A DNA stretch of 64,000 bases, from contig NZ_CP093281.1 of the NCBI RefSeq assembly GCF_026651855.1, forward strand, positions 496,001 to 560,000, in the 5' to 3' direction. This DNA is from Pseudomonas silvicola. Lineage in GTDB: Bacteria > Pseudomonadota > Gammaproteobacteria > Pseudomonadales > Pseudomonadaceae. Under the pieces are notes generated by a model, which saw only the letters and a list, made by a program, of their open reading frames with translations, was not told the origin of the DNA and did no database searches. Shown piece after piece: positions 10,895 to 40,257 of this stretch (its first letter is position 1; every line of letters begins with the position of its first letter). Made by a program: the position numbers and the translations under genes.

Positions 10895-12006
10895 TTATAA
10901 ATAAGGCCGATTAACCGCAGGGATTTGAGGAAATATCCCGCTATAAGGTATGGGCAGGAAATCATGGAAGATTTGCTTTAACGTTTGCTCGGGTTCGACA
11001 TCCGCGAACAGCTGAGGATAAAGTGTTTTTGCCATAAATTCCGTTGCCGCGATGTGCCAGGGGCTGAGGTAAAATTCATCCAGATGACGGCGGAGTGGCC
11101 GTTACTGTAGCGCGTGGCTAATTCACGCAATCCGTTTTGCTGCGAGGTCAGTTGGGCGAAGCTGCTTTGCACCGCTGGCAATGCCACTTCTGGCCCCAGC
11201 TTCAGCAAACCCTGCGCCTCGTTACCGCCAAATCCGGTGGCGAAGTAGTAATCCGGTTGCGCCGCGATCACCATTTCTTCACTCAAGCGACCAAACACAC
11301 CGTGCTGCGTTTTAGCCGCGATATTGTCGCCGCCCGCTGCATTTAACAGTTCGCCAAGGCTGCCGTTGAGGCGGTGACGCAACATTCATTGCGACGACCA
11401 AGATGCAGCTGCAACAACACTGAAGGCTTCGCGCCATTATAACTGGCCAGCCGTTCACGAATCACCTGCATATGTGCGTCATAAAAACGGTTAAAGGCCT
11501 GCGCGCGAGCCTGCTGATTCAGCACCTCGCCAAAAATCTCCACGCTGCGACGGGTATTCTTCAGCAGATGCACGCGCAGATCGATTTTCACCACCGGAAT
11601 ATGGGCGGCTTTCAGCATACTCACTAGGCGCAGATCGGCATCATCGTAGCGCGCAAGGCTCGGCAGGATCACCACATCCGGTTTGAGTGCCAGGATCTGC
11701 TCAGGATTGATGGCATTCGGGCCGCCTGAACCGAGGGAAGGGATTTTTAACATTTGCGGAACTGGACGCGCAAAACTGTTCCACGTCTGGCTATCGTACT
11801 TTTTCAAATCCTGAGGCCAGGCAACGATATGCTGAAAAAGGATTGCCCGTTCCAGCAGCGCCAGCGTGTAGAGCATGCGACTTTCGCCCAGCACAATGCG
11901 CTGCGGATGGTCAGATATCCACCTGATTACCGTCAATATCCGTGACGGTTTTTGCCAGCGCGGCGCTACTAAGCACCAGTAAGAAGCAGGCCAGAACAAT
12001 CAGCAT
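10895..12006 (-). CDS. Siderophore ABC transporter periplasmic binding protein
   Basis: FecB/FhuD-type periplasmic binding protein. The signal peptide MLIVLACFLLVLSSAALAK is followed, in a mix of frames, by QRIVLGESRMLYTLALLE, WPQDLKKYD, PSLGSGGPNAINPEQILALK (the ..S.G....n.E.ilalkPD motif), PDVVILPSLARY, IPVVKIDLR, then ELLNAAGGDNIAA, PDYYFATGFGG and PGTSRQRN/HIAAT. Five or more frameshifts. It directly follows the TonB receptor gene on the same strand, 48 bp after its stop. No matching permease or ATPase is adjacent. Confidence 0.82.
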
Positions 12007-16397: not shown

Positions 16398-16517
16398 GGT
16401 TCAGATTCAATCATTAGCAAGATGGGCTGACATCATAGCAAAAATTCTTAACACTCAAAGCGATGTCGCGGTGCTATGTTACTTCACTGCATCACAAAAC
16501 AAACGGCGAGGAAATGA

Positions 16518-24929: not shown

Positions 24930-25823
24930 GTGAAACTCGCCAAAGGTATCACCTTGCTTGCACTTGCATTGAGTGCGCACACCGCGTTTGCCGCCGATCA
25001 ATCCGTCCCAACTGACAGCTCACTCCATGTTAAGGCCGACCCGGCACTGAAAAGCTTGCTGCCGGCGGATGTGGTTAAGCGCGGCTACATCGTGGCAGGA
25101 ACCAACCCAAACACGCCGCCGACCACCTTCTATAAAGAAGACAACAAAACCCTGGCCAGGACGTGAAATTGACGTGATGAACGCCGTGGGCGAACGCTTA
25201 GGGATCCAGGTCCAGTGGCGTGACACCGGCGGTTTCGACAACATCATTCCCGGCCTGAAAACCGGTCGTTACGATGTTGCGCTCTCGAACATTAATGCCA
25301 CCGCGACCCGCGCCAAAATTATCGATTTCGTGAGCTATTACGATGCCAGCCTGTTGGGCATTATCTCGCGCAAAGATGCCAATGTGGCACCGTTCAAAAC
25401 CCTGGACGCCGTGTGCGGTCTGGAAGTTGGCGCAGGTTCAGGCACTACGCAGGTGACGCGTCTGGAAGAAGCCAGCAAAGCGCTGTGAAGCAGCGGGTAA
25501 AAGCCGATCAAAGTATCCGTATTCCCGGATCGTCCAGCCGGTGTTCAGGCTGTCTCAGCGGTCGACGTGCCGATGTTCCTTGGCCCGTACGAAGGTCTGC
25601 TGTGGCAGGCGAAAGTGATTAAACCTATCACCCTGAGCGGCGAAATCACCGTGCATGACGCGCCTGTTTCTGTGGCTTTCGAAAGATTCTGCGCTTGAGC
25701 CTGCGGTGCAAGCGGCACTTAACTCGCTGATCAAAGATGGTAGCTACCAGAAGATCCTCGACAACTGGGGCATCGGTTTTGGCGCGGTTAAAGAATCAAA
25801 CGTAACCGAGGAAATCTTTCAAT
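24930..25823 (+). CDS. Polar amino-acid ABC transporter, periplasmic binding protein
   Basis: Solute-binding protein family 3. The signal peptide MKLAKGITLLALALSAHTA precedes ADPALKSLLPADVVKRGYIV, TNPNTPPTTFYKED, REIDVMNAVGERLGIQVQWR, FDNIIPGLKTGRYDVALSNI, FVSYYDASLLGIISRKD, GLEVGAGSGTTQVTRLEEAS, GPYEGLLWQAK and the C-terminus DGSYQKILDNWGIG, all standard. Three frameshifts (near 25155, 25485, 25515, 25675). The last codons overlap the permease start. An amino acid or amino-acid-like ligand is expected; see the sulfur-salvage finding for a candidate. Confidence 0.9.
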
Positions 25824-26748
25824 GAGTGATGATGTACGTGACCACACCGATGATTTGAAAATTGTCGGCAAACGTTACTACGGACGCTGGCTGAGTGCGC
25901 TGGTGGTGCTGTTGTGCGTCGTGGCAATGGCGCACTCGATGATTAACAATCCACGCTTCGAATGGAGCGTGATTGCGGAAAATTTCACCGGCGAATCGAT
26001 CTTGCAGGGCGTATTAATGACGCTGCAACTGACGGCGATTTCGGTGGTGCTGGGCTTTGCGTTTGGTACGGTGCTGGCGCTGATGCGCCTCTCATCCAAC
26101 CCCGTGCTGGTGGGCGTGAGTTGGTTCTATACCTGGTTCTTCCGGGGTGTGCCGATGCTGGTGCAGCTGTTCCTGTGGTACAACATTGCCGCACTTTATC
26201 CGACGATTTCACTCTCAATCCCAGGCCTGGGCGAGCTGTGGAGCACCCAATCTAATGCGCTGGTGAGTCCATTCAGTGCGGCGGTGATCGCGCTGGTGAT
26301 GCATCAGTCTGCCTATGCCGCTGAAATTGTGCGTGCCGGTATCCAAAGCGTAGGAAACGGACAACTGGAAGCCGCACGTGCGCTGGGTTACCGCCCCGCG
26401 CAGATTTTCCGACACACGGTGTTGCCACAGGCGATGCGCGCCATCATGCCACCTGCCGGTAATGAAATTATCGGTCAGTTGAAAACCACTGCCGTCGTCT
26501 CAGTCATTTCGCTGCAGGATGTGCTGTTCTCCGCGCAGATCATCTATCAGCGTACTTATGAAGTGATCCCGCTGCTGCTGGTGGCGACGCTGTGGTATCT
26601 GCTGATGACCTCGGTACTGTCGATTGGTCAGTTCTACGTTGAACGCTATTTTGGTCGTGGCGTTACGCGTCGTGAAAAACGCAGCCTGTTTAAATCCTTG
26701 CCGGGCTTTAGCGCGCAAAAACCTGAAAGGAGCGTAAGCAATGGCTGA
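25822..26748 (+). CDS. Polar amino-acid ABC transporter permease (intact)
   Basis: HisM/GlnP-type permease of 308 residues, one of the few genes here with no frameshift. After a 30-residue cytoplasmic start it has a first helix (LSALVVLLCVVAMA), then SILQGVLMTLQLTAISVVLG, FFRGVPMLVQLFLWYNIAAL, and the EAA loop AARALGYRPAQIFRHTVLPQ AMRAIMPP. The C-terminus is extended. It overlaps the binding-protein stop (ATGAG) and the ATPase start, showing a compact three-gene operon. Confidence 0.95.
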   Translation: MSDDVRDHTDDLKIVGKRYYGRWLSALVVLLCVVAMAHSMINNPRFEWSVIAENFTGESILQGVLMTLQLTAISVVLGFAFGTVLALMRLSSNPVLVGVSWFYTWFFRGVPMLVQLFLWYNIAALYPTISLSIPGLGELWSTQSNALVSPFSAAVIALVMHQSAYAAEIVRAGIQSVGNGQLEAARALGYRPAQIFRHTVLPQAMRAIMPPAGNEIIGQLKTTAVVSVISLQDVLFSAQIIYQRTYEVIPLLLVATLWYLLMTSVLSIGQFYVERYFGRGVTRREKRSLFKSLPGFSAQKPERSVSNG

Positions 26749-27495
26749 AGCGATCGCCTTACGTAAAGTCACTAAACGCTTCTCTGGCGTCACGATTCTG
26801 GACGAAGTGAATCTCGATATTCCCGCCGGTTCTGTCACGGTCATTCTTGGGCCTTCTGGTTCGGGGAAATCCACCTTGCTGCGCTGCATTAACCACCTGG
26901 AAAAGCTGGATGGCGGCACCATTCGGATTGGTGGCGAAATCATTGGCTACAAACAAAAAGGCCAGGCGCTGCATGAGTTAAGCAGCAGTGAGATTGCGCG
27001 TCAGCGTGCGCAAATTGGCATGGTGTTCCAGCAGTTCAACCTGTTCCCGCATCGCACGGTGTTACAGAACATCGTTGATGCGATGCGCGTGAAAAAACAG
27101 AACCGCCAACAGGCGACCAGCAAAAGCGCTGTCACTGCTTAAGCAGGTGGGACGGCAGGGCGCGAAGAGGTGGCCGCAGAATCTTTCCGGCGGACAGCAA
27201 CAGCGATGTGGCCATTGCGCGCGCGCGCTGATGGCCCGGGTGTGATGCTGTTCGATGAGCCGACATCGGCACTGGATCCAGAACTGGTGGGCGAAGTGTT
27301 GCAAGTGATTAAGCAACTGGCGCACTCCGGCATCACCATGGTAATTGTGACGCACGAGATTGGTTTCGCGCGCGAGGTTGCCGACAACATTGTCTTTATG
27401 GAAGACGGCAAAATCGTGGCAGCTGGACCCACTCAACAAGTCCTCGACGACCCGGAAAACGGGCGCGTAAGAAACTTATTGCAACGGTGCTCTAA
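26741..27495 (+). CDS. Polar amino-acid ABC transporter ATP-binding protein
   Basis: GlnQ/HisP-type ATPase. Walker A GPSGSGKST, LLRCINHLEKLDGG, Q-loop MVFQQFNLFPHRTVLQNIV; the signature region LSGGQQQRVAIARAL lies in a damaged stretch (27120-27240, three indels); Walker B VMLFDEPTSALDPELVGEVL, H-loop MVIVTHEIGFAREVAD. The last reading frame ends KKLIATVL with the stop inside a terminator hairpin. It overlaps the permease by 8 bases. Confidence 0.92.
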
Positions 27496-27506
27496 GCACC
27501 GTTTTT
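27483..27506 (+). terminator. Rho-independent terminator of the amino-acid transporter operon
   Basis: Perfect 9-bp stem (aacggtgct/agcaccgtt) with a 3-base loop, followed by TTTTT; it includes the ATPase stop codon. Strong canonical structure, so bisC-type gene expression probably needs readthrough or its own promoter. Confidence 0.88.
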
Positions 27507-27528
27507 CATTTTGACAGCCAGGAACAGT

Positions 27529-29811
27529 GATGACGCAAAACGGTAATACACAGCGCCCACTGGGGCGCTTTTCATGCCCAGCAATCGGGCGACCAGCTCA
27601 CTATCGAACCCTTTAAAGGCGATCCCGATCCCAGCCCGCTGCTGCAAAATTTCCGCACCGCTTTAAATCATCCGGCACGCGTCCGCGCCCGATGGTGTCG
27701 TGGCTGGCTGGAAGAGGGCCCCGGCCCCGATCAGCGCCGTGGCAATGACGAATACGTTGCTGTTAGCTGGGAGCAGGCTTACGAACTGGTCTCGCGTGAA
27801 TTGAAGCGCGTGGGCGACACTCATGGCCCGGAAGGCATTTTTGGCGGTTCTATGGCTGGTCGAGTGCCGGGCGATTTCATCATGCGCAAAGCCAGGTACA
27901 CCGATTCCTGAACACCACGCTGGGCGGCTATGTGCGTTCGGTAAACAGCTACAGTTCGGGCTCTGCTTCGGTGCTGCTGCCACATATCGTCGGCGACATG
28001 AACGAGATTGCGCGACGCGGCGTGAGTTGGGAAGAGATTGCCCAGCACAGTGAAATTGTTATCGCCTTTGGTGGTCTGGCGCTGAAAAACTCGCAGGTGG
28101 CGAGCGGTGGATTAAGTGAACACACCGAGCGCGGTTTTATGCATCAGGCCGCGCAACGCGACACACGTTTTATCTCAGTGTAAGCGAAAAGATTCGATCT
28201 GACGAAGCCAAAGGGGGTGGCTGGCCTTGCGTCCAGGCACCGATGCCGCTTTTATTCTCGGTGTTCTGTCCGTATTGATTGAAGAACAGCTGACGGATGA
28301 AGCCTTCCTGAGTCGCTACACCGTGGGTTGGCCGGAAATGGTTGCCTATATCCGTGGTGAAGAGGATGGCACACCATGCGTGATGCCGCCTGGGCAGCAG
28401 AGCGGCGTCAGCGCGGCATTTATCACTGATTTGCCCGCCAGCTACCCGGTAACGTGCTGGTGACCGGTTGCGCATGCGCTGCAACGTTCGGAACACGGTG
28501 AACAACCCGTGTGGCTCGGGCTGGTGCTGGCCGCCGCGCTGGGCCAACCGGGTTTACCGGGCGGCGGTTACACCTATGCGCTGGGCGCGTTGGGTCACTA
28601 CGGCATCACAACCTGGTGAGTTTCCGGCGTTACCGCAGGGCAAAAATGGCATCGATCGTCTGATCCCGGTGGCGCGCATCTCAGACATGTTGCTCAATCC
28701 CGGCAAACCGTTCGACTACAATGGTCGCCGCCTGACCTATCCGTATATTCGTCTGGCTTACTGGGCGGGCGGTAATCCGTTCCACCACCATCAGGATTTA
28801 GCGCGACTCCGTCAGGCATTTTGCCAGCTGGATACGCTGATTGTGCATGTTGCGTGGACGGCCAGTGCGCGCCATGCCGATATCGTATTGCCCGCGACCA
28901 TGACGCTGGAGCGAGAAGATATCGGCGGTGCATAACCGATCGCCATCTGTTTGCTATGCAGCCGGTCAGCTGCAACCGCACGGCGGAAATAAGACGATTG
29001 CCATTTTTTGCTGAGCTGGCGCGCAGGCTGGGACGTGAAGAGGCGTTTACCGAAGGTCGCGATACGCGTGGCTGGTTGACATCATTACACGCACAGTTGC
29101 AGCAAAAGCTGGCAACGCATCAGAGTCGACATTCGATTTGAACAGTTCTGGCAGCAGGGCGTGCTGGAATTGCCGCAGCTCAAGACGGGTGGACGGATGA
29201 TGACGCCTTCGTGCGTCGGATGCTTCACCACTGCCAACACCGAGCGGAAAAATCGAAATCTACTCGGCGACGATTGCCAGTTTCGATTATGAAAACTGCC
29301 CCGGACATCCGGTGTGGCGAGAGCCGCAGCAAAAGCCCGATGCCGACCATCCCGTTCTGGCTCATTCCAATCAAGCCCGCGACACGTCTTTCACAGCGGA
29401 TTTCGGGGATTACAGCCTGAGCGGCAAACGCGATGGGCGTGAAGTGTGCAGCCTGAATTCGGATGATGCGGCATCTTTGGGTATTCAAGATGGCGAGATT
29501 ATTGAGCTTTATAACCAACGTGGTCACGTACTCGCCAGCGCGCGTGTGACCGACACGGTGATGCCGGGCGTGGTGCAGTTGCCGACCGGTGCCTGGTACG
29601 ATCCCGTCGATCCCACCGCGCTGCGGCCGTTATGCCGTCACGGCCCCGAATGTGCTGACGCTGGATATTGGCCTCGTCTTTGACTCAAGGCTGCAGTGGC
29701 CATCACCGTAGTGCAGGTGCGTAAATACACCGGGGAACTGACGCCGGTGCAGGCATTCATCCGCCGCAAGTTAGCGTTCTCAATGGGCGGCCGCATCGCC
29801 CCAGACATTAA
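27529..29811 (+). CDS. Molybdopterin-dependent oxidoreductase (BisC/TorZ type)
   Basis: DMSO-reductase-family enzyme of about 760 residues binding bis-MGD. Pieces in order: [56 protein letters not shown] (Ser ligand region, with the AGR..HA motif of BisC/TorA), [109 protein letters not shown] and a molybdopterin-binding C-terminus ([33 protein letters not shown]). No Tat signal is seen, as expected for cytoplasmic BisC. At least ten frameshifts. BisC reduces biotin sulfoxide and free methionine-S-sulfoxide. Confidence 0.87.
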
Positions 29812-30179
29812 TCTTCTAACTGCAACCACATTACGCGCAGACGATGCCCATCAGGATCGATAGCCGCGAAGGTGTAAAATCCATCTCGGTCGGTGACTGT
29901 ACAATGGTGATCTCCGCAAAGCATTCGTTGTAAAGGAAATCGACGTCGGCTTTGTGTCCTGCACTTTAAAAGTGATTTCACCGTTGGCCGTAAAATGTTG
30001 CGTCTCCACCGGCGGTTGAACGGTGTATTTCGACCACAAACCCAGTTTGAATCCATTCTCAAAAACAAACATCGCAAAAGGTGGCGACGTTAATTGGCGA
30101 TATCAAACAGCGATGCATAAAAGTCGGCACTCTTCACAACGTTGGGAACGTAAAGAATGGTCATATCAGCAGTGAACAT
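29808..30179 (-). CDS. VOC/glyoxalase-fold protein
   Basis: About 122 residues. It begins MFTADMTILYVPNVVKSADF YASLFDI, then MFVFENGFKLGLWSKYTVQP, ANGEITFKVQD, and ends GYTFAAIDPDGHRLRVMW, the usual D.DGH.l.v VOC ending. Three frameshifts in 370 bases. The stop overlaps that of the convergent molybdoenzyme by 4 bases. It resembles PhnB/bleomycin-resistance-type single-domain proteins; no ligand can be named. Confidence 0.8.
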
Positions 30180-30337
30180 GGTTTTTTCTCCTTGTGTGTT
30201 TACCGCTGTAGATTACGAGAGAGCTGTGACAGAAACTGTCAGGAGTGTGGTGTAAACTTTTAGTCGCACTCGCGCTCAATATCCTGATAATGCACGCAGG
30301 TTTTATTTTTATTGAACGCTGTAAATGGAGAGATGAA

Positions 30338-30555
30338 ATGGTCAATGACTACTTTGCACCACCCCCAATGGGCATGACGCCGGAACAACACAAGCGGACC
30401 ATCGCTGTGGCGGCCGCTTTAACTGTGGCGAAGGAATCCGTCAGTGCCTCAACCTCCGCCAGCGGTTCAGCGTCATGGGATCTTCAGGCGGTTGCGTAAG
30501 ATCTCCAATCTGGCCGATGCGATTCAGGACGCTCAGGCAGAGGAGCGAAGACTAA
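30338..30555 (+). CDS. Small hypothetical protein
   Basis: Reads MVNDYFAPPPMGMTPEQHKR, TIAVAAALTVAKESVSASTS, then ISNLADAIQDA in a neighbouring frame. GGAG seven bases before the ATG supports the start. A terminator begins 20 bases after the likely stop, which supports a real gene of about 70 codons. I do not recognise a family; an alanine/serine-rich helical middle is all that can be seen. One or two indels are assumed around 30480-30500. Confidence 0.5.
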
Positions 30556-30574
30556 CCCTGACCACCGCTCACAT

Positions 30575-30606
30575 GACGGCTTTATTGGCCGTCTTGTGAT
30601 TTTTTT
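30575..30606 (+). terminator. Rho-independent terminator
   Basis: Stem gacggc/gccgtc with a 7-base loop, then TTGTGA and a run of seven T's. It closes the transcript of the small gene upstream. Confidence 0.75.
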
Positions 30607-30699
30607 AAAAAATATTTTCTCCAGCCTGCATCCAGTTGACCCCCTCCTTACGTATATCCCGTTGTGAGCAAATTCTTCGCTCCCCTACAACGAGGATTT

Positions 30700-31266
30700 A
30701 TGATGAAAAAGCTAATCACCACTGCCGTCATCTCCAGTGCGTTAATGTTCACTGCCACCACCTTCGCTGCCATGAATTCTGATTCTGTCATGGTCGGCGG
30801 TGCCGCCATGTACCCGCAGAAAAACATCATTGAAAATGCCCTCAACTCTAAAGATCACACCACCTTAGTCGCCGCAGTGAAAGCCGCAGGTTTAGTGGAA
30901 ACACTGCAGGGTAAAGGTCCATTTACCGTGTTCGCGCCAACCAATGCCGCGTTTGCGAATTGCCTGCTGGCACACGTGGATAATTTGGGTGAAACAGAAA
31001 ACAAAGCCCAGCGACCAACATCCTCACCTATCATGTCGTGGCCGGTAAATACGACATGAAAGCGCTGGAAATGAAAATTAAACAAGGTGGCGGTCACGCG
31101 GAGCTGAAAACTGTGAACGGTCAGCCTTTGTGGATTATGAGTAATGGCCCTCACAATATTCAGCTTAAAGATGGCCAGGGCAATGTGGCCAATATCAGTA
31201 CGCAATTAACCAGATCAGAAAAACGGTGTGATTGATGTTATCGATACCGTTCTGATGCCTAAGTAA
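30700..31266 (+). CDS. Secreted fasciclin (FAS1) domain protein
   Basis: A signal peptide ([20 protein letters not shown]) is followed by [92 protein letters not shown] and [15 protein letters not shown], a single complete FAS1 domain of about 190 residues. FAS1 domains mediate surface adhesion. Two frameshifts (near 30960 and 31220). An ECF sigma factor and an anti-sigma factor follow on the same strand, the arrangement seen for SigK-controlled FAS1 antigens in mycobacteria. AGGA upstream of 30700 supports the start. Confidence 0.9.
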
Positions 31267-31277
31267 ATTGTCTATAC

Positions 31278-31303
31278 TCGGAAGGCATTTCAATGCCTTC
31301 CGA
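31278..31303 (+). promoter_or_regulatory. Strong hairpin directly before the sigma factor start
   Basis: Perfect 11-bp stem (tcggaaggcat/atgccttccga) with a 4-base loop, ending five bases before the sigma ATG at 31309. There is no T tract on the plus strand (AAAAA follows) and no Shine-Dalgarno between hairpin and ATG. It could dampen transcription from the fasciclin gene or hide the translation start. Confidence 0.6.
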
Positions 31304-31308
31304 AAAAC

Positions 31309-31859
31309 ATGGATAACGTTTTGGCTGAACAGCAGGTGAATTATTGCGGGCGATTGCGCAAAGGCGATCGCCAGGCATTTGAACAATTGTATCGACTCGC
31401 TTCGCCTCATCTTTTCGCCCTGGCTTTTGCATTACGCCCAGCGAGCCTGGGCCGGAAGAGTGCTGCGATTGTTTCCTCACTTTTGGAATCGAGCCGACAG
31501 CTATGATGCCGCACTTAGCGCCCCATGCCTGGATGACGCATATCGTGCGCAATCGCTGTATTGACTGGCTGCGCAGTGGACAGGCGCGTGATGCAATCCC
31601 CTGTCTGAAGAATACACCGATAACGTTTCAGAGGGCGAAGTGGAAGGGCCAGATGAACCCTTTGATGATTCACAGACCGCCCGATTACAACATTGCTTGC
31701 AGCATCTCAGCAGTGAGCAGCGGCAGAGTGTGACGCTGGCTTATTATCAGGGGATGTCGCACAGCGATATTGCTGCCTGGATGCAGCAACCGGTAGGATC
31801 AGTAAAAAGTTGGATCCGTCGTGCGATGGAGCATCTTCGGGAGTGCAGTGGGCTTATGA
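31309..31859 (+). CDS. ECF-family RNA polymerase sigma factor (SigK-like)
   Basis: About 183 residues. Region 2: RKGDRQAFEQLYRLASPHLF, ALRITRSEPGPEECCDCF, LTFWNRADSYDAALSAP, AWMTHIVRNRCIDWLRS. Region 4: LQHLSSEQRQSVTLAYYQGM SHSDIAAW, PVGSVKSWIRRAMEHLREC, a clear sigma-70 region 4 HTH. Four frameshifts. The last frame stops at a TGA overlapping the anti-sigma ATG (ATGA). The QGxSHxdIA and P.GTVKSwirRg motifs put it with SigK/EcfG-like sigma factors paired with RskA-type anti-sigma proteins. Confidence 0.88.
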
Positions 31860-32495
31860 AAATAATAAACATGATGATGCGCTCGCCGCCGAATATGCCC
31901 TGGGAACATTACGCGGCAATCCACGGTTGCGTTCGAGAGGCGGCTGCAACAAGAGCCGGAACTGGCGGCGAAAGTGGCAAGCTGGCAGACAATGCTGGCA
32001 GGAATGGACACCCATTTGCGACCTGAAGTCCCGCCTGAACGCGTGTGGAAAAAAATTGCCTTGAGTCTTCCGGCTAAAACCCCGGTGAAACGTGCCAATC
32101 CTTATGTTGGCTGGCTGGTTGCTGCGGGTCTTGCGGCATTCACCCTGGTATCGTATTACAACCATCGTCCTGATGAATTCGCACCGTTGGTGATTCTGGG
32201 GGATTCGCAGCATCAGGGGCAATGGGTCGTGAGCCGCAGCAGCGACCGCCGTTATCTGCAATTATCGCCAATTAAACCTGTCGCCATTAATGCGTCCAGG
32301 AGTTTAACTTTGGCTGATTCCGCGGGGCAATCCCCGGTCTCGCTGGGTTTACTGGCAGACCATGCGGCAACGCAAATTGAAATGGATAATCGCGCTCTGG
32401 AAGCAGGGGCGACCCTTGCCATCAGCCTGGAACCGCAGGGCGGTTCGCCAACGGGGCAACCCACCGGACCGGTGCTTTACAGCGGTATGCTGTAA
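31856..32495 (+). CDS. Anti-sigma factor (RskA/ChrR-like, single membrane span)
   Basis: N-terminal cytoplasmic anti-sigma domain: KHDDALAAEYALGTLRGNPR, RLQQEPELAAKVASWQTMLA, RPEVPPERVWKKIAL. This is followed by a transmembrane span (VGWLVAAGLAAFTLVSYY) and a periplasmic RskA domain (VILGDSQHQGQWVVSRSSDR, QSPVSLGLLADHAATQIEM, TLAISLEPQGGSPTGQPTGP VLYSGML). The P.TGPVLYSG ending is the anti-sigma-K signature. One A is missing from the run after ATGAAAA and another indel is near 31935. It overlaps the sigma gene by four bases, so stoichiometric co-translation is likely. Confidence 0.9.
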
Positions 32496-32500
32496 ACCTA

Positions 32501-33189
32501 TTATCGGGCATCGGGATAGCGTGCTTGCTGATAATCCTTCCAGCGCTTAAGCAACTGATGGCGCGTCCCGGGATAGTTTTCATCCTCAACCACAATCTCT
32601 TCAATGCGGTCGACGCGGAAATTACGAAAATCCTGGCGCAGTTCGCACCAGCCACACAGCAGACGCACGCGGTCAAAATACCCCAACACCACGGGCCAGA
32701 TGATACGAGTGGATGACACGTCTTTAAGATCTTTATAACGCAGAGATTTTGTTGCGGGTATGGATTGCCTGACGCAGTTCCGGCAGATGCTGCTCAAACA
32801 GGGCTTCTCCCCGTGAAGCGATCAGCAGTGATTGATGATCGATGCCTTGCGATAAATGCGCTGGCATTACGGCATAGATTTTGCCAGCGCGTGTTGTGCG
32901 GCGGTTTCAATTCAGCATCAGTGTGGCGGCTGACCCAGTCAAGGCCCAACATGGCGCATCAATCTCATGACGGGAAAACATCAAGGGCGGTAAATGACCG
33001 TCGGATTTCAGCAAATACCCCAGTCGGCGCTGCCCTCGATTCCACGCCTTGCTGCTGCAGGCAGATGATGTCGCGATAGACGGTGCGCACGCTAATGCTG
33101 AGTTGCTCCGCAAGATGCTGCGCAGTCACCGGATAGCGGTGACAACGTAACAATTGCACAAGCTCCATCAGTCGCTGGGTTTTGGTCAT
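32501..33189 (-). CDS. HTH-WYL transcriptional regulator (YafY type)
   Basis: The N-terminal HTH_11 reads RLMELVQLLRCHRYPVTAQH, LAEQLSISVRTVYRDIICLQ, GVESRA (Y.DI..L...G.pI). After a frameshift GYLLKSDGHLPPLMFSRHEI DALLLG is the usual link to the WYL domain, then RIEEIVVEDENYPGTRHQLL closes the protein. The region RLLCGWCELRQDFRNFRVDR holds the WYL-domain core. Three frameshifts. It is transcribed towards the anti-sigma gene and just after the MmgE/PrpD gene; WYL proteins sense ligands or nucleic acid. Confidence 0.85.
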
Positions 33190-33216
33190 GGTGTGTGCCT
33201 AGCTAAAGTCTGGCAG

Positions 33217-34678
33217 TCAGGAGCGGTCCAGCCGCACACGCACCAGCGTTGACTCCAGCGCAAGTGCGGCGACCTGTAGTTTAATACGGCACTCGCCATC
33301 CCGATAGACGCAACTTCGTCTGTAATGTGGTGAACTAAAAGCGCTGCAACGAACGTGATATTAAACGCGTAATAACTGCTGCAGCATCGCCAGATCAGCG
33401 GTTGTCTGCAATGCGCTGCTTTGCTGCACCTGTTGCCATCGCTCGCCCGATTCCTGACGCAGTGCCAGACGCAATTTACCTTCAACGTCCACGCCATCGG
33501 CCAGCGATTGCTGACGGGTGCGTCGCTGTTGCAGCCGAGTGCCATCGCGCAAGTTAAGAGTGACCAGATGAAAACGCAGTGCGGGATTAATGGCATCTGG
33601 CGGAGCGGTGTCGTCAGGTACTCGTCTTACTTTGGCTGCCAGGTGGCATCACAGCATGATTAAGATCGCCTTCCGCAAAATCTTCCAGCCGCAGATCGTT
33701 ATAGATCAGCATTGCGGCAATCACGTATTCAGACTGAACGCTTCAATCCCATTGGTGGGCGATGTGACGAAGCTGGCAATATCGCCACCTGGCGGAAGCT
33801 ACGCTGATATCGGTGATGTTATCCAGCAGCGCTTCCAGCGAATTGCCGCTGGCTAACCAGCCATCACGCAGAATGCGCGCGGCTTCCGCTGCGCTATGCG
33901 TTCCGGCGCAGGTCGGAAGGGTTTGTACTCAGACCCGGCGTCACGACGCGCCATGGCACGCCCCAATGCGCGACCAATTTTTCAGGTTGAGCTGCGCCGT
34001 TGCTGCTGGCCGCAAGGAAAGCCTCAATCACGCCCTCCTGTTTGCCATCGAAACCGGCCAGCGTCAGCTGTGCCGCCGTAACTGCACGTTCCGCCGCTAA
34101 ACCCGCGCGTGGAGCGTGAGTTTGACAGCGGAACCGAATTGCACGCAGCCCGCTGGCCTGAGTGGTGGCGATGCCGAGCATGTTGGCCGTTGCGCCGACA
34201 TCCAGTTTAATAGACGAGCCAGCGCGGCGGCGGCGGCAATGGTGCCCAGCGTTGCGGTGTTGTGATAACCCAAAGCGTAATGCTGCTGGCTGGCAGCTAA
34301 GCCAAGCCGTCCGGCCATTTCCACACCGATGGCGTAAGCATCAAGGAAATCATCAATCGCTGCCGCCTGTTGCTGCAGCCAGGCAAACAGCGCAGGCAAA
34401 ATCACCACGCTGGGATGACCGCGAAAATCAGCGTGGAAATCATCGTAATCCAGCGCGTGAGCGGCATAACCAAGCAGCAACGCCTGAGAACGTAGGCCGC
34501 CGTCGCCATAAACGGTTCGTAGTGCCGGCAAGCCGCTATCCGGCACCTGGCCTTTCAGCACCGGCCAGCTGACAGCGAGAAAATCCTTTCCCTTCGCGCG
34601 GCTTCACGTGCAGCGGCATCGGGTTGGCTATGGACGATAAGCTCAGCGGGCAGCGGTGATACTCTTGCGGCGCCACAC
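33217..34678 (-). CDS. MmgE/PrpD-family protein
   Basis: 2-methylcitrate-dehydratase-fold protein of about 470 residues. AVSWPVL.GQVPDSGLPALR, ALLLGYAAHALDYDDFH (the H.lDyDD family hallmark), GHPSVVILPALFAWLQQ, YAIGVEMAGRLG, HYALGYHNTATLGTIAAAAA, AQLTLAGFDGKQEGVIEAFL are clear. The C-terminal half from about 33900 is scattered over several frames and ends LESTLVRVRLDRS. At least five frameshifts. The exact start is uncertain. The neighbours (M20, GNAT) recall YxeQ of the Bacillus yxe operon, whose role in S-succinocysteine salvage is undefined. Confidence 0.84.
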
Positions 34679-35799
34679 TGTTCAGTGCTGCCACAGCCAG
34701 ATTATTGGATAGCGTGATGGCAGCTTAGTATCATCATTGATGCGAAACGCCGGATGATGCAGCGCGTAAGGTTCGCCGGTGCCAATCATCGCCATAAACG
34801 CCTGGCAACTGCTGTTGATAGAAGGCAAAATCTTCACCGATTGGGCTGGCTTCAACGACGCGCGCTTCAAAAGCCGCTGGCCGCTGCCTGTTGCAGCGCG
34901 AAATCGGCCCATGTGCATCATTCACCACCGACGGTGGACCTGCATGCCAGTTGAACTCACGTTGGCAGCAAGGCCGCGCCAATTCCCTGCGATCTCGCGG
35001 AAGCGTTGCTCCAGTCGCTCGCGCGTCTCCTGTGAATGAACGCACCGTGCCTTCCAGCCACGCGCTGTCCGGGATGACGTTCGGTACTGCCGCTGTGAAT
35101 CTGGGTAATCGAGACCACCGCATTGTCGCCGGAAGGGGCATTACGGCTGATCAGCGTTTGCGCGGCAGAAACAATCTGCGCGGCGATCACAATCGGATCG
35201 TTGCCCTGATGCGGCTTCGCAGCGTGGCTACCGGTGCCGATAATTTTGATATCAAAGCGGTCGACGGCGGCGGTCAGTGGGCCGGCTTTGCTGCCAATCA
35301 CGCCCGGTGGTAATGAAGGGTCGTTATGAATGCCGAAAATAGTTATCGCATCCTGCAGTGCACCGGTAGCAATCACATCCGGCGCGCCCTGGCCGGTCTC
35401 TTCGGCGGCCTGGAACAAAATACGCACGCGGCCCGCTAAGCTCGCTTCCTGCTGTTTCAGCAGAATCGCCGCGCCTAAGGCTGCGGAACTGTGGAAATCG
35501 TGGCCGCACGCGTGCATCACGCCCGGACGCTCAGAACGGAACGTCACATCAGACTGCTCTTCAATCGGCAGTGCATCAATGTCGGAACGCAGCACGATCA
35601 GTGGCCCATTTTCGGGGCCAACTTCCGCCACCAACCCGGTTTTCAGCGGCAGATCCAACACGCGGATCTGGTGCTGATCCAGTTGCTGGCGAATACGCGC
35701 GGTGGTTTCAAACTCTTCATTAGAGAGTTCAGGAAAACGGTGTAACTCATGGCGGAAGGCAATCAATTGCTGGCCCAATGCGCTCTCATCAAAACTCAT
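34643..35799 (-). CDS. M20-family amidohydrolase (N-acyl amino-acid deacylase)
   Basis: Zinc-dependent deacylase of the IAA-amino-acid/YxeP type. Clean for the first 270 residues: LIAFRHELHRFPELSNEEFE, IVLRSDIDALPIEEQ (catalytic D.DALP), PGVMHACGHDFHSSAALGAA (metal ligands), RILFQAAEETGQGAPDVIA (catalytic EE), then DRFDIKIIGTGSHAAKPHQG. Later frames give IPDSAWLEGTVRSF, ASPIGEDFAFYQQQLPGVY and GTGEPYALHHPAFRINDDT. Four frameshifts after 35000. The start at 35799 overlaps the GNAT stop (ATGA); an upstream in-frame ATG at 35838 is less likely. Confidence 0.9.
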
Positions 35800-36343
35800 G
35801 CTTTGCTTCCTTGTTGTGCGGCCTGACGTGTCATCCACGCATCATGCGCGCTGTCATCCAGCACTTTCTTCATATATTGGGTGATGTGGCCTTTGCCGAG
35901 ATCGGTGGTGTGCATCAGCTGGAAGCCGCGCTTTTTATACATCTCGATCAGCCAGGGATGGCTGGTGGCGGTACCCAGTGATACCGCTGGCGCCCGCAGT
36001 TTACCCAGCAGGATCTCCTGTTCCAGCCGATCCTGCACCTGGCGGCCATACTGTTTACCGGGATAGTCGGGATGGGCACCGAACCAGCCAATATGCGGCA
36101 GGCCAAACGGCCCAGGCAGCGGTCCCCATGGATAGCGCACGGTGACCGAGAAACCATCCGCGCCCCTTGTGCGTAAAGCGCATAAACGCCGTGACTTTGC
36201 AGGTGGCGCAGCGTCTTTTCGCGATCTGCGGTGGCGGCATCAAATGTGATGCCCAGTGCCAGCGTCGGCGCATACGCGGCGTGCATCAGCGCCTGATAGG
36301 TTTCAACCTCATCTTCTCTAACCTGACGAAAGTCAAGTGACAT
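35796..36343 (-). CDS. GNAT-family N-acetyltransferase (YxeL-like position)
   Basis: About 182 residues. MSLDFRQVREDEVETYQALM HAAYAPTLALG, LRHLQSHGVYALYAQGARM, MRYPWGPLPGPFGLPHIGWF, AHPDYPGKQYGRQVQDRLEQ (acetyl-CoA loop), APAVSLGTATSHPWLIEMYK and KRGFQLMHTTDLGKGHI are readable in two frames. The stop overlaps the M20 start by four bases, so acetylation and deacylation are co-translated, which fits a protect-modify-deprotect pathway. One or two frameshifts near 36165. Confidence 0.85.
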
Positions 36344-36664
36344 AACTATCCCCGGAAAAACCGCATGGAAGCGGTAAACTGAATGCAGATTGAGCAGCGC
36401 ATAGCGGTTGAAACAGCGCAATTTAGAGCGCTAATTCAAAATACCAGCGTGCTAAGCAACTCAGAATATCAGTAATGCCTTGCGCTTCTATATGTGAAAA
36501 TATTAAGCTAATGCGAATTTGTGAAAATGAAATGGCTTTTCCATTGCTTATATCGCGATTTACCGTAGTATGCATAAATTACATAGCGCTATAACTATTT
36601 GGCATTAACCCCATGAAATAAAATAACTTTCGTTATAGCGCTTATTCTTAATCAGGGTGACGAC
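36344..36664. promoter_or_regulatory. Divergent intergenic region, A/T-rich
   Basis: 320 bp between the GNAT operon (minus) and the YbdH-like gene (plus). It is much more A/T-rich than the flanking genes (runs such as gtgaaaatgaaatggc, taaaataac). No coding sequence or clear known operator is visible. It must hold both promoters; the composition could favour H-NS-type silencing by the homologue encoded at 40.5 kb (inference). Confidence 0.45.
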
Positions 36665-37787
36665 GTGTTAGCGATCAAATCTCCGCGCGTGCTTATGCAC
36701 GAAGCCTGGCCTGCGTAAGCGTGCTGGTGAATTTATCAAACCTTATGCCACGCATATCCGCATTTTCTACTTCTCCCAATGCCTGGCAAGCGGTTAACGG
36801 AATTAAGCCAGAGTTTAGAAGCCAACGGTATCCGCTGGGAGTTGGAATATCTGCACGGTGAATGCACCGATGCCGTGATCGAAGCGCTCAAAACCAACGT
36901 TGAGCAACAGCAAGCAGAGCTGCGCATTTGCCGTGGGCGGTGGCCGCGTGCTGGATGCTGCTAAAGCGGTGGGCAGCCAGTTACCGGATCTGGTGATTAA
37001 CTTCGCTACTTTGGCGGCGACCTGCGCTGCATGGTCACCGGTTGCCATCATTTATAACGAGCAGAGGCGGCCCACGTGCGCAGCCAGCCGCTGGGGAAAA
37101 TGCCGGAGCTGGTGCTGGTGGACAGTGAAGTGATCGCCTGCAGCGATGTGCGCTATCTCAAAGCGGGTATTGTCGATGCGCTCGCGAAGTACTACGAATT
37201 TGCCCCTTACCTGCGCAGTAACCCGCACGATCTGGCGCTCGATCTGTGATGACGGCGCAACGAGCGCTGGATGTTTATCGCCAACTGGGTGAAGCCGCCG
37301 TCAGCGCCAATGAAAAACAGCAAGTCACGCCGGAGTTGTTGAAGGTGATTGATGCCAACATCGTACTGGCAGGCCTGGCCAACAGCGTGCGCGATCAACT
37401 TCCCACCCCGGCTGCTCATGCGATTCATAACCGTCTGACGCACCAGCTGAGCTGCATCATTGGCTACACGGCGAGAAGGTTGGCTACAGCCTGCTGGTGC
37501 AATCGCTGATTGAAAACCATGGTGTGCCTGATGCAGAACTGCTGGCACTGCTGCGTCAGTACGCGATGCCATTGACGCTGGCGCCGCTAACCGGCGAGCG
37601 CGCGGCGGCGATTCGCACTATTGCAGAACAGATTAAATTTCCGGCGGCCAGCGCTGAACGTCTGCCGTTCCGCATTCATGCGGATGCGTTAGAACAGGCG
37701 CTGCTGGCAACAAAACCGTTTCTGGAACACTCTTTTATCGACCAGGACAACTTCATGGCTACTGCACAGAACACAACGCATCCTTAG
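36665..37787 (+). CDS. Iron-containing alcohol dehydrogenase family (YbdH/HcxA-like)
   Basis: Group III/GldA-like dehydrogenase. VLAIKSPRVLMHEA start (GTG), QSLEANGIRWELEYLHGECT, RIAVGGGRVLDAAKAVG (GGGxxLDxAK nucleotide motif), PDLVINFATLAATCAAWSPV (T.AATcAAwtp as in YbdH), YLKAGIVDALAKYYEFAPYL, AAHAIHNRLTHQ with catalytic-metal His, KVGYSLLVQSLIENHGVP. Six frameshifts. The family reduces 2-oxo acids to 2-hydroxy acids in E. coli (HcxA). The 3' end runs into the monooxygenase start. Confidence 0.82.
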
Positions 37788-39047
37788 GACTCTTTGTACA
37801 AGCCGGTCGGGCAACACGTCAGCGGCTGGCGTCTCACGGAAAAACTCGGCGATCCACTGACATTGACTGGCTGATCACCATCGCAAAGCCCGAAGCGGAG
37901 TCAAATTCGATCTCGAGTTCTTCGTCGGTGATGCGCTGGCGACCAGCATGTACCGTTTGCCTTCGACCACTTGGCGCCTTGCGAGCCGCTAACCATGTTG
38001 TCGGCGCTGGCGGTGAACACCAAACGTATTGGCCTGGCAGCGACGGCATCCACCACTTTTAGCGATCCATTCACCATGGCTCGCAGCTTCTCGTCGCTGG
38101 ATCACATCAGCCGTGGTCGCGCAGCGTGGAACGTGGTGACGTCGTTCTCCACCGACGTGGCGCGTAACTTTAGCCGCAACGATATGCCAAACCATGCCGA
38201 GCGCTATGCGCGTGCGTGAGTTCCTCGAAGTGACCAACAAGCTGTGGGAAGGTTGGGAAGCGGGGCCGTGCAGCCAAACAAAGAGACCGGTGAATACTTC
38301 GTTAATGACAAAATTAAGTCGATTGATCATGACGGCGAGCACTTCCAGGTGCAGGGTCCGCTGAACATTACACGCTCCCCGCAGGGACGTCCGGTGATCA
38401 TCGAAGCCGGTTCATCTGCAGACGGTCAAAAACTGGCGGCCGAAACCGCCGAAGTGATCTTCACCGCTGCCGCCAGCCTGGAAGAAGCGCAAACCTTCTA
38501 CCGCTCGCAGAAAGATCAGGTGATTGCTGCCGGGCGTAATCCAGAGCATGTAGTGATCATGCCGGAGCGTAATGCCGATTGTCGGACGTACCCGTGAAGA
38601 AGCCAAAGCGCTGTGGAAAGAGTTGAACACGCTGGTGGATATCGAAAACGGTCTGCGTCAGCTATCGCTGCGTTTCAGCATGGATCTGAGCCAGTATCCG
38701 CTGGATGGTCCGGTTCCTGAAGTGCCGCTCGGCGAAGGTAATCAGAGCCGCGTCAAGCTGATGACGGATATGGCGAAGCGCGAAAACCTGACCTTGCGTG
38801 AGCTGGCCGCCGTGGCAGCCGGTTCGCGTGGCCATCAGCGTGATTGTCGGCACCGCAGAAGACATCGCCGATTTGAGCTGTGGCTGAAGAGGCGGAGCCG
38901 ATGGTTTCAATATCATGCCTGCCATCATGTCAGAGCAACTGGATCTGTTCGTTGAGCTGGTGATCCCGGAACTGCGTCGCCGTGGTCTGTTCCGCGATGA
39001 TTACGAATTCGCTGTTGCGCGAGAACCTCGGTCTGCCTGCGCTTTAA
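37755..39047 (+). CDS. NtaA/SnaA/DszA-family FMN-dependent monooxygenase
   Basis: Luciferase-fold, two-component monooxygenase of about 430 residues (YxeK, NtaA, DszA relatives). EPLTMLSALAVNTKRIGLAA, TASTTFSDPFTMARSFSSLD, HISRGRAAWNVVTSF (the S.GR.gWNvVTS hallmark), DHDGEHFQVQGPLN, SPQGRPVIIEAGSSADGQKL, AETAEVIFTAAASLEEAQTF, then VAISVIVGTAEDIAD, ADGFNIMPAIMSEQLDLFVE and VIPELRRRGLFRDDYE. Nine or so frameshifts, densest in the first 200 bases. It needs reduced FMN from a separate reductase, not seen here. Probably cleaves a C-S or C-N bond in an N-acetylated amino-acid substrate (inference from context). Confidence 0.9.
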
Positions 39048-39066
39048 ACCCTTTGAGGAGCTGAAC

Positions 39067-40257
39067 ATGGTCACCTTATCAAAGCGTGTGCAGTCTGTGT
39101 CGCTCTGCCAATGCCGCGGCGCGCCAGTTGACGCGCCAGCTGAAGAGCAGGGCGTAGATATTCTGGATCTCACCACCGGTGAGCCGGAGTTTTGATACGC
39201 CACAGCACATCCGTGATGCCGTTGAAGCCATGAATAATGGTGAGACGCTATACGCTCGACCAATGGCACCACGCCGCTGCGTAAAGCGGTGCAGAGCCAA
39301 ACTGGCACGCGTGAAAATCAGCTGGATTGCGTTCAGGGGCAGATTTTATCGCCAACGGGGCGAAGCAGATCATCTTCAACGCCTTCGCCGCACAGCAGAA
39401 TGACGGCGTGAGGTGATTGTGCGGTGCCATACTGGCCGACGTTCCCGGATAGCGATGCGTTTTAACGGCGGCGACGCGGTGCTGCTGGGCCCGCTGGAGC
39501 AAGAGTACAAGCTGCAGCCGCAGCAGCTGGCGCAAGCGATCACCGACAAAACCCGCTGGCTGGTGCTGAATAATCCCGGCAATCCATCCGGTGCGGTGTA
39601 TAACGCAGCAGAATTAACTGCACTGGCGGCGGTGCTACGTGACCATCCCAACGTATGGATCATGCTGGATGAACTGTATGAACACGTTCTGTTTGATGGA
39701 CGTGAACACGTCAGCCTTTGCAGGTAGCGCCAGATTTAGCCGAGCGCATTCTGCTGGTGGGGGGCGTGTCGAAAACCTATGCCATGACCGGCTGGCGCAT
39801 CGGCTTTGGTGCCGGTCCGCAAGCGCTGATTGATGCCATGGTGGTAGTGCAGTCGCAGAACAGTTCTGGTGCCTGCGCCATCAGTCAGGCGGCAGCGGTA
39901 GCGGCGCTGAACGGCGGCCTGGATTTCCTGCCACCGCAACGTGCGGCCTATCAGGCGCGTCGCGATGCGATTATGGCGCAGCTAAGCCCGGTTGAAGGCA
40001 TTGAGGTGCTGAATCGAAGGGGCGTTCTTTATCTTCTGTCGCTGTGCTGGCCTGTTGGAGCAAATCGCGTGCTGATGGACGTACGCTGGAAAGCGAACAG
40101 GATGTGCTGAATTATCTGCTGGAGAGCGGCGTATCCGGCGTTGCCGGCAGTGCGTATGGCTTGTCACCGTATTTCCGTTTGTCGATTGCCACGGATATTG
40201 AAAGCGTGCGCGAAGCCGCAAAACCGCATTGCGGCAGCCTGTGCAGCGTTGAAATAG
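39067..40257 (+). CDS. Class I/II PLP aminotransferase
   Basis: Aspartate-aminotransferase-fold enzyme of about 395 residues. VTLSKRVQSVSLSANAAARQ, ILDLTTGEPEFDTPQHIRDA, KQIIFNAFAATA, WLVLNNPGNPSGAVYNAAEL (N.PxNPTG), IMLDELYEHVLFD, ILLVGGVSKTYAMTGWRIGF (Schiff-base Lys in SK.yaMtGWR), SGACAISQAAAVAAL and a C-terminal YGLSPYFRLSIATDIESV with the substrate-binding Arg. Seven frameshifts. It starts 19 bp after the monooxygenase stop, so it belongs to the same operon. Confidence 0.9.

Follow-up and report, generated by a model that had tools for sequence, protein, structure and literature searches.

A 64,000-nucleotide stretch of the Pseudomonas silvicola assembly (contig NZ_CP093281.1, positions 496,001 to 560,000 of the forward strand; hereafter the window) carries, between positions 24930 and 40257, a gene set whose counterparts in Pantoea form a real, conserved and compact salvage locus of the S-(2-succino)cysteine (2SC) type, a variant of a published system. 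With a probability of roughly 0.7, we take the locus to be an Erwiniaceae variant of the Bacillus subtilis scm (yxe) pathway, which recovers cysteine from 2SC; 2SC as the substrate is what we infer from gene content and protein kinship. An annotation made earlier from the letters of this DNA (the first-pass annotation) had proposed such an equivalent of the yxe operon. Protein affinities, a recurring neighborhood and the exchange of one cleavage enzyme for another in sister genomes uphold the equivalence, while the substrate is still deduced and the monooxygenase tree would permit a CmoJ-type grouping. Taken as a whole, that interpretation is partly supported.

Window genes were placed by tblastn with the intact proteins of Pantoea sp. 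SOD02, and proteins of At-9b and P. dispersa were used as well. Coverage was 94-100% for each of the ten SOD02 proteins, with 57-96% identity in the best segment, and pieces of all five yxe component types were found. The positions agree with those first reported for the yxe families; a molybdenum reductase (27534-29758) and a YafY regulator (32513-33189), locus members in some relatives, had not been listed. Because nine of the ten window genes are broken, the protein identities reported below rest on intact Pantoea orthologues. The features are as follows, with the extent of the SOD02 match in parentheses.

24930 to 25822, forward strand: ATP-binding cassette (ABC) transporter substrate-binding protein, YxeM-like role; in three frames (298 of 298 residues, 24930-25822)
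25822 to 26748, forward strand: amino-acid ABC permease, YxeN-like role; intact open reading frame of 308 residues, 96% identical to SOD02 (25828-26745)
26741 to 27495, forward strand: ABC ATPase, YxeO-like role; single frame with an in-frame stop (26741-27481)
27534 to 29761, forward strand: molybdenum S/N-oxide reductase, BisC-like; broken (747 of 762 residues, 27534-29758)
32513 to 33189, reverse strand: YafY-type helix-turn-helix (HTH)-WYL regulator, candidate regulator of the locus; broken, placed by tblastn with P. dispersa YafY, HTH_11 and WYL domains
33364 to 34678, reverse strand: MmgE/PrpD protein of the YxeQ family, predicted epimerase; broken (33370-34603; the upper end is that of the first-pass annotation, and sequence matches reach 34627)
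34643 to 35799, reverse strand: M20 deacylase, YxeP-like; broken (367 of 380 residues, 34709-35799)
35796 to 36343, reverse strand: GNAT acetyltransferase, YxeL-like; in two frames (181 of 181 residues, 35799-36343)
36665 to 37730, forward strand: iron-containing alcohol dehydrogenase (ADH) family protein; broken (351 of 356 residues, 36665-37715)
37755 to 39047, forward strand: luciferase-like flavin mononucleotide (FMN) monooxygenase (LLM), YxeK-like; broken (411 of 433 residues, 37794-39025)
39067 to 40257, forward strand: class I/II aminotransferase; broken (384 of 399 residues, 39067-40223; to 40256 with At-9b)

Reference loci were taken from the Pantoea plasmids of At-9b (L012; locus numbers are our own), SOD02 (L009), P. 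dispersa (L010), P. agglomerans (L011) and P. soli (L101), and a plasmid survey examined 14 neighborhoods of 45 plasmid records. At-9b holds a single contiguous locus in which binding protein, permease, ATPase and molybdenum S/N-oxide reductase are followed on the opposite strand by MmgE, M20 and GNAT, and then by ADH, LLM and aminotransferase. The two halves in the window lie only about 2.8 kb of other genes apart, plus the YafY-type regulator; the term 'dispersed', applied to the pathway at first pass, is therefore abandoned. The regulator adjoins MmgE in P. dispersa and P. soli too. The 4-base overlap of GNAT and M20, reported earlier for the window, was confirmed there and is conserved in At-9b (11641-11644) and SOD02 (16423-16426). 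A 2SC locus has been defined as a cluster of at least three of the five components K, L, MNO, P and Q (PMC9706529), and all five are clustered in At-9b, SOD02 and P. soli, which qualifies the locus as an scm/yxe 2SC locus by that definition. In the stretches read, P. dispersa lacked the transporter and reductase, and P. agglomerans lacked GNAT, M20 and the aminotransferase. The co-occurrence in relatives that had been named as a test of the equivalence was found in Pantoea, in other Enterobacteriaceae genera and in Bacilli, so the equivalence was not refuted.

In SOD02 and P. soli an unrelated 3.7-kb gene is inserted between the halves (L009 9420-13130; L101 12989-16717). It encodes 1236 residues annotated only as a FAD-dependent oxidoreductase, the P. 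soli copy being 73% identical, and was dropped as a locus member; the SOD02 copy carries glycosyltransferase and amine-oxidase domains. A family search with the open reading frame at 8548-9081 of L118 gave none. On the Providencia rettgeri plasmid pVCSW10.1 (L098, 3.6-8.3 kb), an IS3 transposase adjoins a short permease piece, ATPase, M20 and MmgE, with no LLM, and this cluster was possibly cut by the IS3 insertion.

Protein affinities were evaluated against the yxe (L048) and ytm (L013) proteins of B. inaquosorum, the comparison that the first-pass annotation had called for; it did not refute the equivalence either. The At-9b LLM was 50% identical to YxeK versus 45% to YtnJ, GNAT 44% to YxeL versus 31% to YtmI, M20 48% to YxeP versus 44% to YtnL, and the ATPase 46% to YxeO versus 43% to TcyN, while MmgE matched YxeQ (37%) and had no counterpart on the ytm side. 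Wherever both operons offer a counterpart, the Pantoea protein was nearer the Yxe one; the exception was the permease, a close call (31% and 112 bits to YxeN; 36% and 101 bits to TcyL). The nearest solved M20 structure is YxeP itself (1YSJ). Like the B. subtilis scm (yxe) operon (YxeK-L-MNO-P-Q), the Pantoea locus clusters an LLM, a GNAT protein, an amino-acid ABC transporter, an M20 protein and an MmgE/PrpD protein; it differs in comprising two or three transcription units, in its single permease of about 307 residues and far-diverged binding protein (SBP_bac_3 family in At-9b), in its additional molybdenum reductase, ADH and aminotransferase, and in its location on megaplasmids. The ytm (CmoO/CmoJ) operon for S-alkylcysteines shares the acetylate-cleave-deacetylate logic (PMC10863075, PMC12757645) and has a related LLM, GNAT and M20; the Pantoea loci differ from it in containing MmgE, in having no match to the sulfoxidase CmoO/YtmO and in their lower identity. 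This type of transporter also occurs outside YxeK-type loci: in a genome of the assembly's own genus (L077, 11.4-14.1 kb) a YtnJ-type LLM lies beside a transporter whose ATPase and permease are 57% and 44% identical to the Pantoea ones.

A tree was built from 59 LLMs, leaving out L091 and L126 (frame-broken) and L075 (a repeat of the L074 gene). The 28 MmgE-linked LLMs fell into two groups, Bacilli and Pseudomonadota; constraining them to one clade gave a likelihood 2.24 higher, with a p value of the approximately unbiased test (p-AU) of 0.598. Residues H20, R335, G362-H363 and N390 of YxeK were constant in 28 of 28 MmgE-linked LLMs but not conserved among the 13 rows of YtnJ type (N390 in 1 of 13). 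Most such positions were also common to 15 rows labelled Pseudomonas-like by guess, and S251 (27 of 28) and P393 alone were nearly private to the MmgE-linked set. The sequence of the LLM therefore favors YxeK over CmoJ without deciding between them. In the window, the LLM motifs QHVSGWR, QSR, GSRGH and GFNIMP are readable in the pieces.

The strongest pointer to 2SC comes from relatives in which the LLM has been replaced. Among 129 Enterobacteriaceae genomes (family as in GTDB, one genome per genus), 10 carried an MmgE protein of the YxeQ kind. Three of these (L108, L118 and L119) have an LLM cluster with GNAT, M20, ADH and aminotransferase, and two (L125 and L126) encode a Lyase_1 protein and no LLM. 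Specifically, L125 is arranged as transporter, MmgE-M20-GNAT-lyase and ADH, and the frame-broken L126 as transporter with molybdenum reductase, then MmgE, M20 and lyase, then ADH, with GNAT not detected. In some 2SC clusters yxeK is reported to be replaced by an S-(2-succino) lyase (2SL) that releases fumarate instead of oxaloacetate, and yxe loci of this type occur in Enterococcus italicus and Dickeya dadantii (PMC9706529). The enterobacterial L125 and L126 clusters resemble those loci, whereas in the window and in those Pantoea loci that were read the LLM has not been replaced. A fumarate-type lyase could substitute for an oxygenase only if the group on sulfur were succinyl-like, which is why the swap carries such weight. 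By sequence, an ordinary purB-like role for the L125 lyase is not excluded: it scored 363 bits on purB, above the cut-off of 326, and 456 and 446 bits on models of an adenylosuccinate-lyase subfamily and of the 3-sulfopropionylcysteine synthase XcbD, both below cut-off. The other five genomes (L120-L124), together with L109 and L110 from a phylum search, hold MmgE without LLM, GNAT, M20 or transporter.

These observations bear on whether the locus might salvage a different S-substituted cysteine, such as an S-alk(en)ylcysteine sulfoxide from plants, which would first be reduced by the molybdenum reductase or MsrA and then processed by a CmoO/CmoJ-like route of acetylation, cleavage and deacetylation. 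A grouping of the Pantoea/Erwinia LLMs with the YtnJ/CmoJ type was not rejected by the tree (p-AU 0.38), YtnJ is the closest LLM with a solved structure (no entry named YxeK was among those listed), and plants, including onion, are among the isolation sources. A sulfoxide reductase accompanies 10 of the 12 enterobacterial LLM- or lyase-type loci with a transporter in the stretch, as the molybdenum type in L009, L011, L012, L101, L108, L119 and L126 and as MsrA in L099, L100 and L106; neither type was found in L118 or L125, nor in Providencia, where the transporter is only partial. We nevertheless regard this alternative as unlikely, since the lyase of L125 and L126 fits a succinyl group, and GNAT and M20 lie nearer YxeL and YxeP. 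Moreover, no protein of the Pantoea loci compared matched YtmO, no second LLM is annotated inside the L009-L012 loci, and MmgE was absent from the seven YtnJ operons scanned (a YtnJ search gave 22 loci, 9 of which were scanned, 7 of these being YtnJ operons).

Having preferred 2SC as the substrate, we consider the role of MmgE/PrpD, which is the steadiest partner of the LLM. Among the plasmid neighborhoods, 13 of 14 contain an LLM, the exception being Providencia. YxeQ matches occurred in 17 of 398 Bacilli genomes; where the best YxeQ piece was at least 55% identical, a YxeK relative lay in the stretch in 10 of 10 cases (one broken, L091), and at 31-38% identity in 0 of 7. Conversely, no MmgE was found in any of the 9 loci scanned in the YtnJ search or in 20 stretches covering the best 21 of 49 LLM places listed in the assembly's own order. 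In L086-L089 MmgE is kept and M20 is missing. A quick tree of 54 MmgE rows, assessed by the Shimodaira-Hasegawa-like approximate likelihood ratio test (SH-aLRT) only and leaving out the frame-broken L091 and L126, joined 37 proteins in one clade at a support of 100: 28 LLM-linked, 1 lyase-linked, 1 from Providencia (M20, no LLM) and 7 of a third type. The clade is LLM-linked in Bacilli, Alphaproteobacteria and Enterobacteriaceae and is kept beside the lyase too.

YxeQ is described as of 'unknown function' in the excerpts of PMC9706529. The B. inaquosorum protein aligns end to end, at 915 bits, with PDB entry 7BRA, deposited as 'Bacillus subtilis IRG1', and 7BRA and 7E9D are evidently YxeQ of the 2SC operon. 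Its next PDB scores were 208.6 bits for iminodisuccinate (IDS) epimerase (2HP0/2HP3) and 96.4 at best for cis-aconitate decarboxylases; the Pantoea MmgE, after 7BRA, likewise scored 138.2 bits for the former versus 105.9 for the latter, so that known decarboxylases are not the closest relatives of either protein. According to PMC7347537, IDS epimerase, 28% identical to bsIRG1, turns both the R,R and the S,S form of iminodisuccinate into R,S; its bases H99 and Y145 are both kept in bsIRG1, Y145 is reported absent from mammalian IRG1, and the decarboxylase role of bsIRG1 was based on structure comparison and docking. IDS epimerase lies outside the LLM-linked clade in the tree. Its bases correspond to YxeQ H102 and Y146, which are present in 37 of 37 clade rows and in the window piece, and the R of RGHPS (R100) is shared by all 37 rows and IDS epimerase and found in 2 of 15 outside rows. 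H145, G149, H151 and K199 are also constant in all 37. The window piece (open reading frame 34097-34603) reads RGHPS, HYALGYH and QFGSAVK. The substrate of IDS epimerase is an N-(1,2-dicarboxyethyl) compound, and 2SC is its analogue with sulfur in place of that nitrogen.

Addition of thiols to fumarate proceeds without enzyme control, and both epimers at the new carbon are expected. Retention of MmgE with either cleavage enzyme suggests action on the common adduct rather than on the C4 products, which differ. We therefore put forward, at about even odds, that YxeQ is an epimerase of 2SC or N-acetyl-2SC that would feed both diastereomers to either cleavage enzyme, across a clade spanning Bacilli, Alphaproteobacteria and Enterobacteriaceae. 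In the literature searched, which did not include the 2018 discovery report or the 2022 paper on YxeK, no published link of 2SC to an epimerase was found. That MmgE might instead be a decarboxylase or dehydratase, IRG1- or PrpD-like, acting on a downstream C4-C6 acid is suggested by the family name, by the deposited name of 7BRA and by superfamily members that perform such reactions. We find this doubtful, given the constancy of MmgE beside either enzyme and its scores; in addition, the second base is M rather than Y in the decarboxylase row of our alignment. A role as S-succino lyase was rejected, because B. subtilis scmK (yxeK) knockouts fail on 2SC (PMC12757645), assuming that yxeQ was intact in them. 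The third-type MmgE, a sister clade found at about 9-11 kb in each of its seven loci, may epimerize another dicarboxyethyl compound. Its gene is flanked in L109 and L120 by those of an AraC-type regulator and an Abhydrolase_7 protein, and L109 adds a FepA-like TonB receptor and dihydrolipoyl dehydrogenase as neighbors. The other loci of this type were judged by gene size only; an open reading frame of 475-479 residues is nearby in 6 of the 7, not in L124.

The remaining enzymes would extend the published system. The intact molybdenum reductase orthologue scored 893.8 bits over nearly the full length of TIGR00509 (bisC_fam), below the cut-off of 1017.55; it may be assigned to the broad BisC family, with the subfamily unsure. 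ADH was found in 10 loci including both lyase-type ones, and the aminotransferase in 6, all of the LLM type. The label 'YbdH-like' given earlier to the dehydrogenase is not retained, as it scored 154.1 bits on YbdH (PRK10586, cut-off 429) and 224.7 on glycerol dehydrogenase (PRK09423, cut-off 336), under both cut-offs. Nor was the proposal supported that it handles the released carbon skeleton, since ADH is also kept in lyase-type clusters, where that product would be fumarate and not oxaloacetate. For the aminotransferase, the nearest model is PRK06107, aspartate transaminase (524.3 bits, cut-off 617). One speculation is that ADH and aminotransferase recover a transaminated adduct. L119 encodes an Ldh_2-type hydroxyacid dehydrogenase, of which L125 has a 28% relative.

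Together, these data suggest the following pathway. The ABC transporter would import the free adduct, and the molybdenum reductase (MsrA in Erwinia) would convert a thioether S-oxide to the sulfide. MmgE/PrpD might then, again at even odds, epimerize the succinyl alpha-carbon: the addition of fumarate to thiols is not stereocontrolled, and a preference for one epimer is expected of the cleaving enzyme. GNAT would N-acetylate the cysteine amine, the FMN monooxygenase would cleave the C-S bond to oxaloacetate and N-acetylcysteine (in sister genomes the lyase would yield fumarate and N-acetylcysteine), and M20 would deacetylate N-acetylcysteine. Acetylation, cleavage and deacetylation were shown in B. 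subtilis by others and are assigned to the present locus from homology and gene order; ADH and aminotransferase would be accessory.

Several observations weigh against this reading, beyond the latitude of the LLM tree. The At-9b binding protein is only 27% identical to YxeM. The four Pantoea LLMs are 48.6-50.0% identical to YxeK of B. inaquosorum (not B. subtilis 168), while the yardstick for close homologues in PMC9706529 is more than 50% identity to B. subtilis YxeK. LLMs 53-55% identical to YxeK occur in stretches read without GNAT, M20 or MmgE, and identity of the LLM to YxeK was accordingly rejected as proof of the pathway. Over the stretches read, the loci of P. agglomerans, P. piersonii, Erwinia and Alphaproteobacteria are devoid of GNAT and M20, and acetylation is therefore not a universal feature of these groups; the loci of Erwinia, Rhizobium, Azospirillum and Roseomonas hold MmgE, LLM and transporter together. 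Seven MmgE genes of the clade (L109, L110 and L120-L124) sit elsewhere, apart from the other components. Y146 is also present in 13 of 15 outside rows, and the HY pair, being common outside the clade, was rejected as a diagnostic of epimerases; R100 is the better discriminator, 2 of the 15 being exceptions. The exchange of LLM for a putative 2SL in L125 and L126 was judged by gene neighborhood and family only, and the activities of the Pantoea proteins are predictions.

The state of the window itself requires comment. A stop interrupts the single frame of the ATPase near 27142, eight of the ten locus proteins are split over two or three frames, and the permease is the sole open frame, as might be expected if the locus were a decayed remnant made up of pseudogenes. 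We think this very unlikely. Frame breaks spread across the listed window region, beyond the locus, and the LLM-type relatives were intact in the genes used. Within the same assembly, a PF01546 search gave near full-length matches in 7 of 9 cases on contig C1 and fragments in 7 of 10 on contig C2, the contig of the window, which makes a poor consensus more likely than dead genes. The assembly is probably a mixture: contig C1 (7.6 Mb) is unlike C2 in kinship and in the completeness of its genes, and it is Pantoea megaplasmids, not the assembly's own order, that the window matches. Its DNA is matched at 76-82% by the best of the Pantoea records listed, and no LLM more than 51% identical to the Pantoea LLM was found among the places listed in the assembly's own order. 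Between the locus halves (30640-32495) lie a fasciclin-domain gene and pieces that by eye resemble an extracytoplasmic function (ECF) sigma factor and anti-sigma partner, neither of which was found there in the Pantoea records read.

Cysteine succination is damage of a general kind, and it marks the accumulation of fumarate in disease (PMC9706529). If our reading is correct, the salvage pathway would reach large plasmids of Pantoea, where it is longer and includes sulfoxide repair. YxeQ, the unassigned gene of the published operon, would gain a function that can be tested cheaply, and the name of a solved structure would be corrected.

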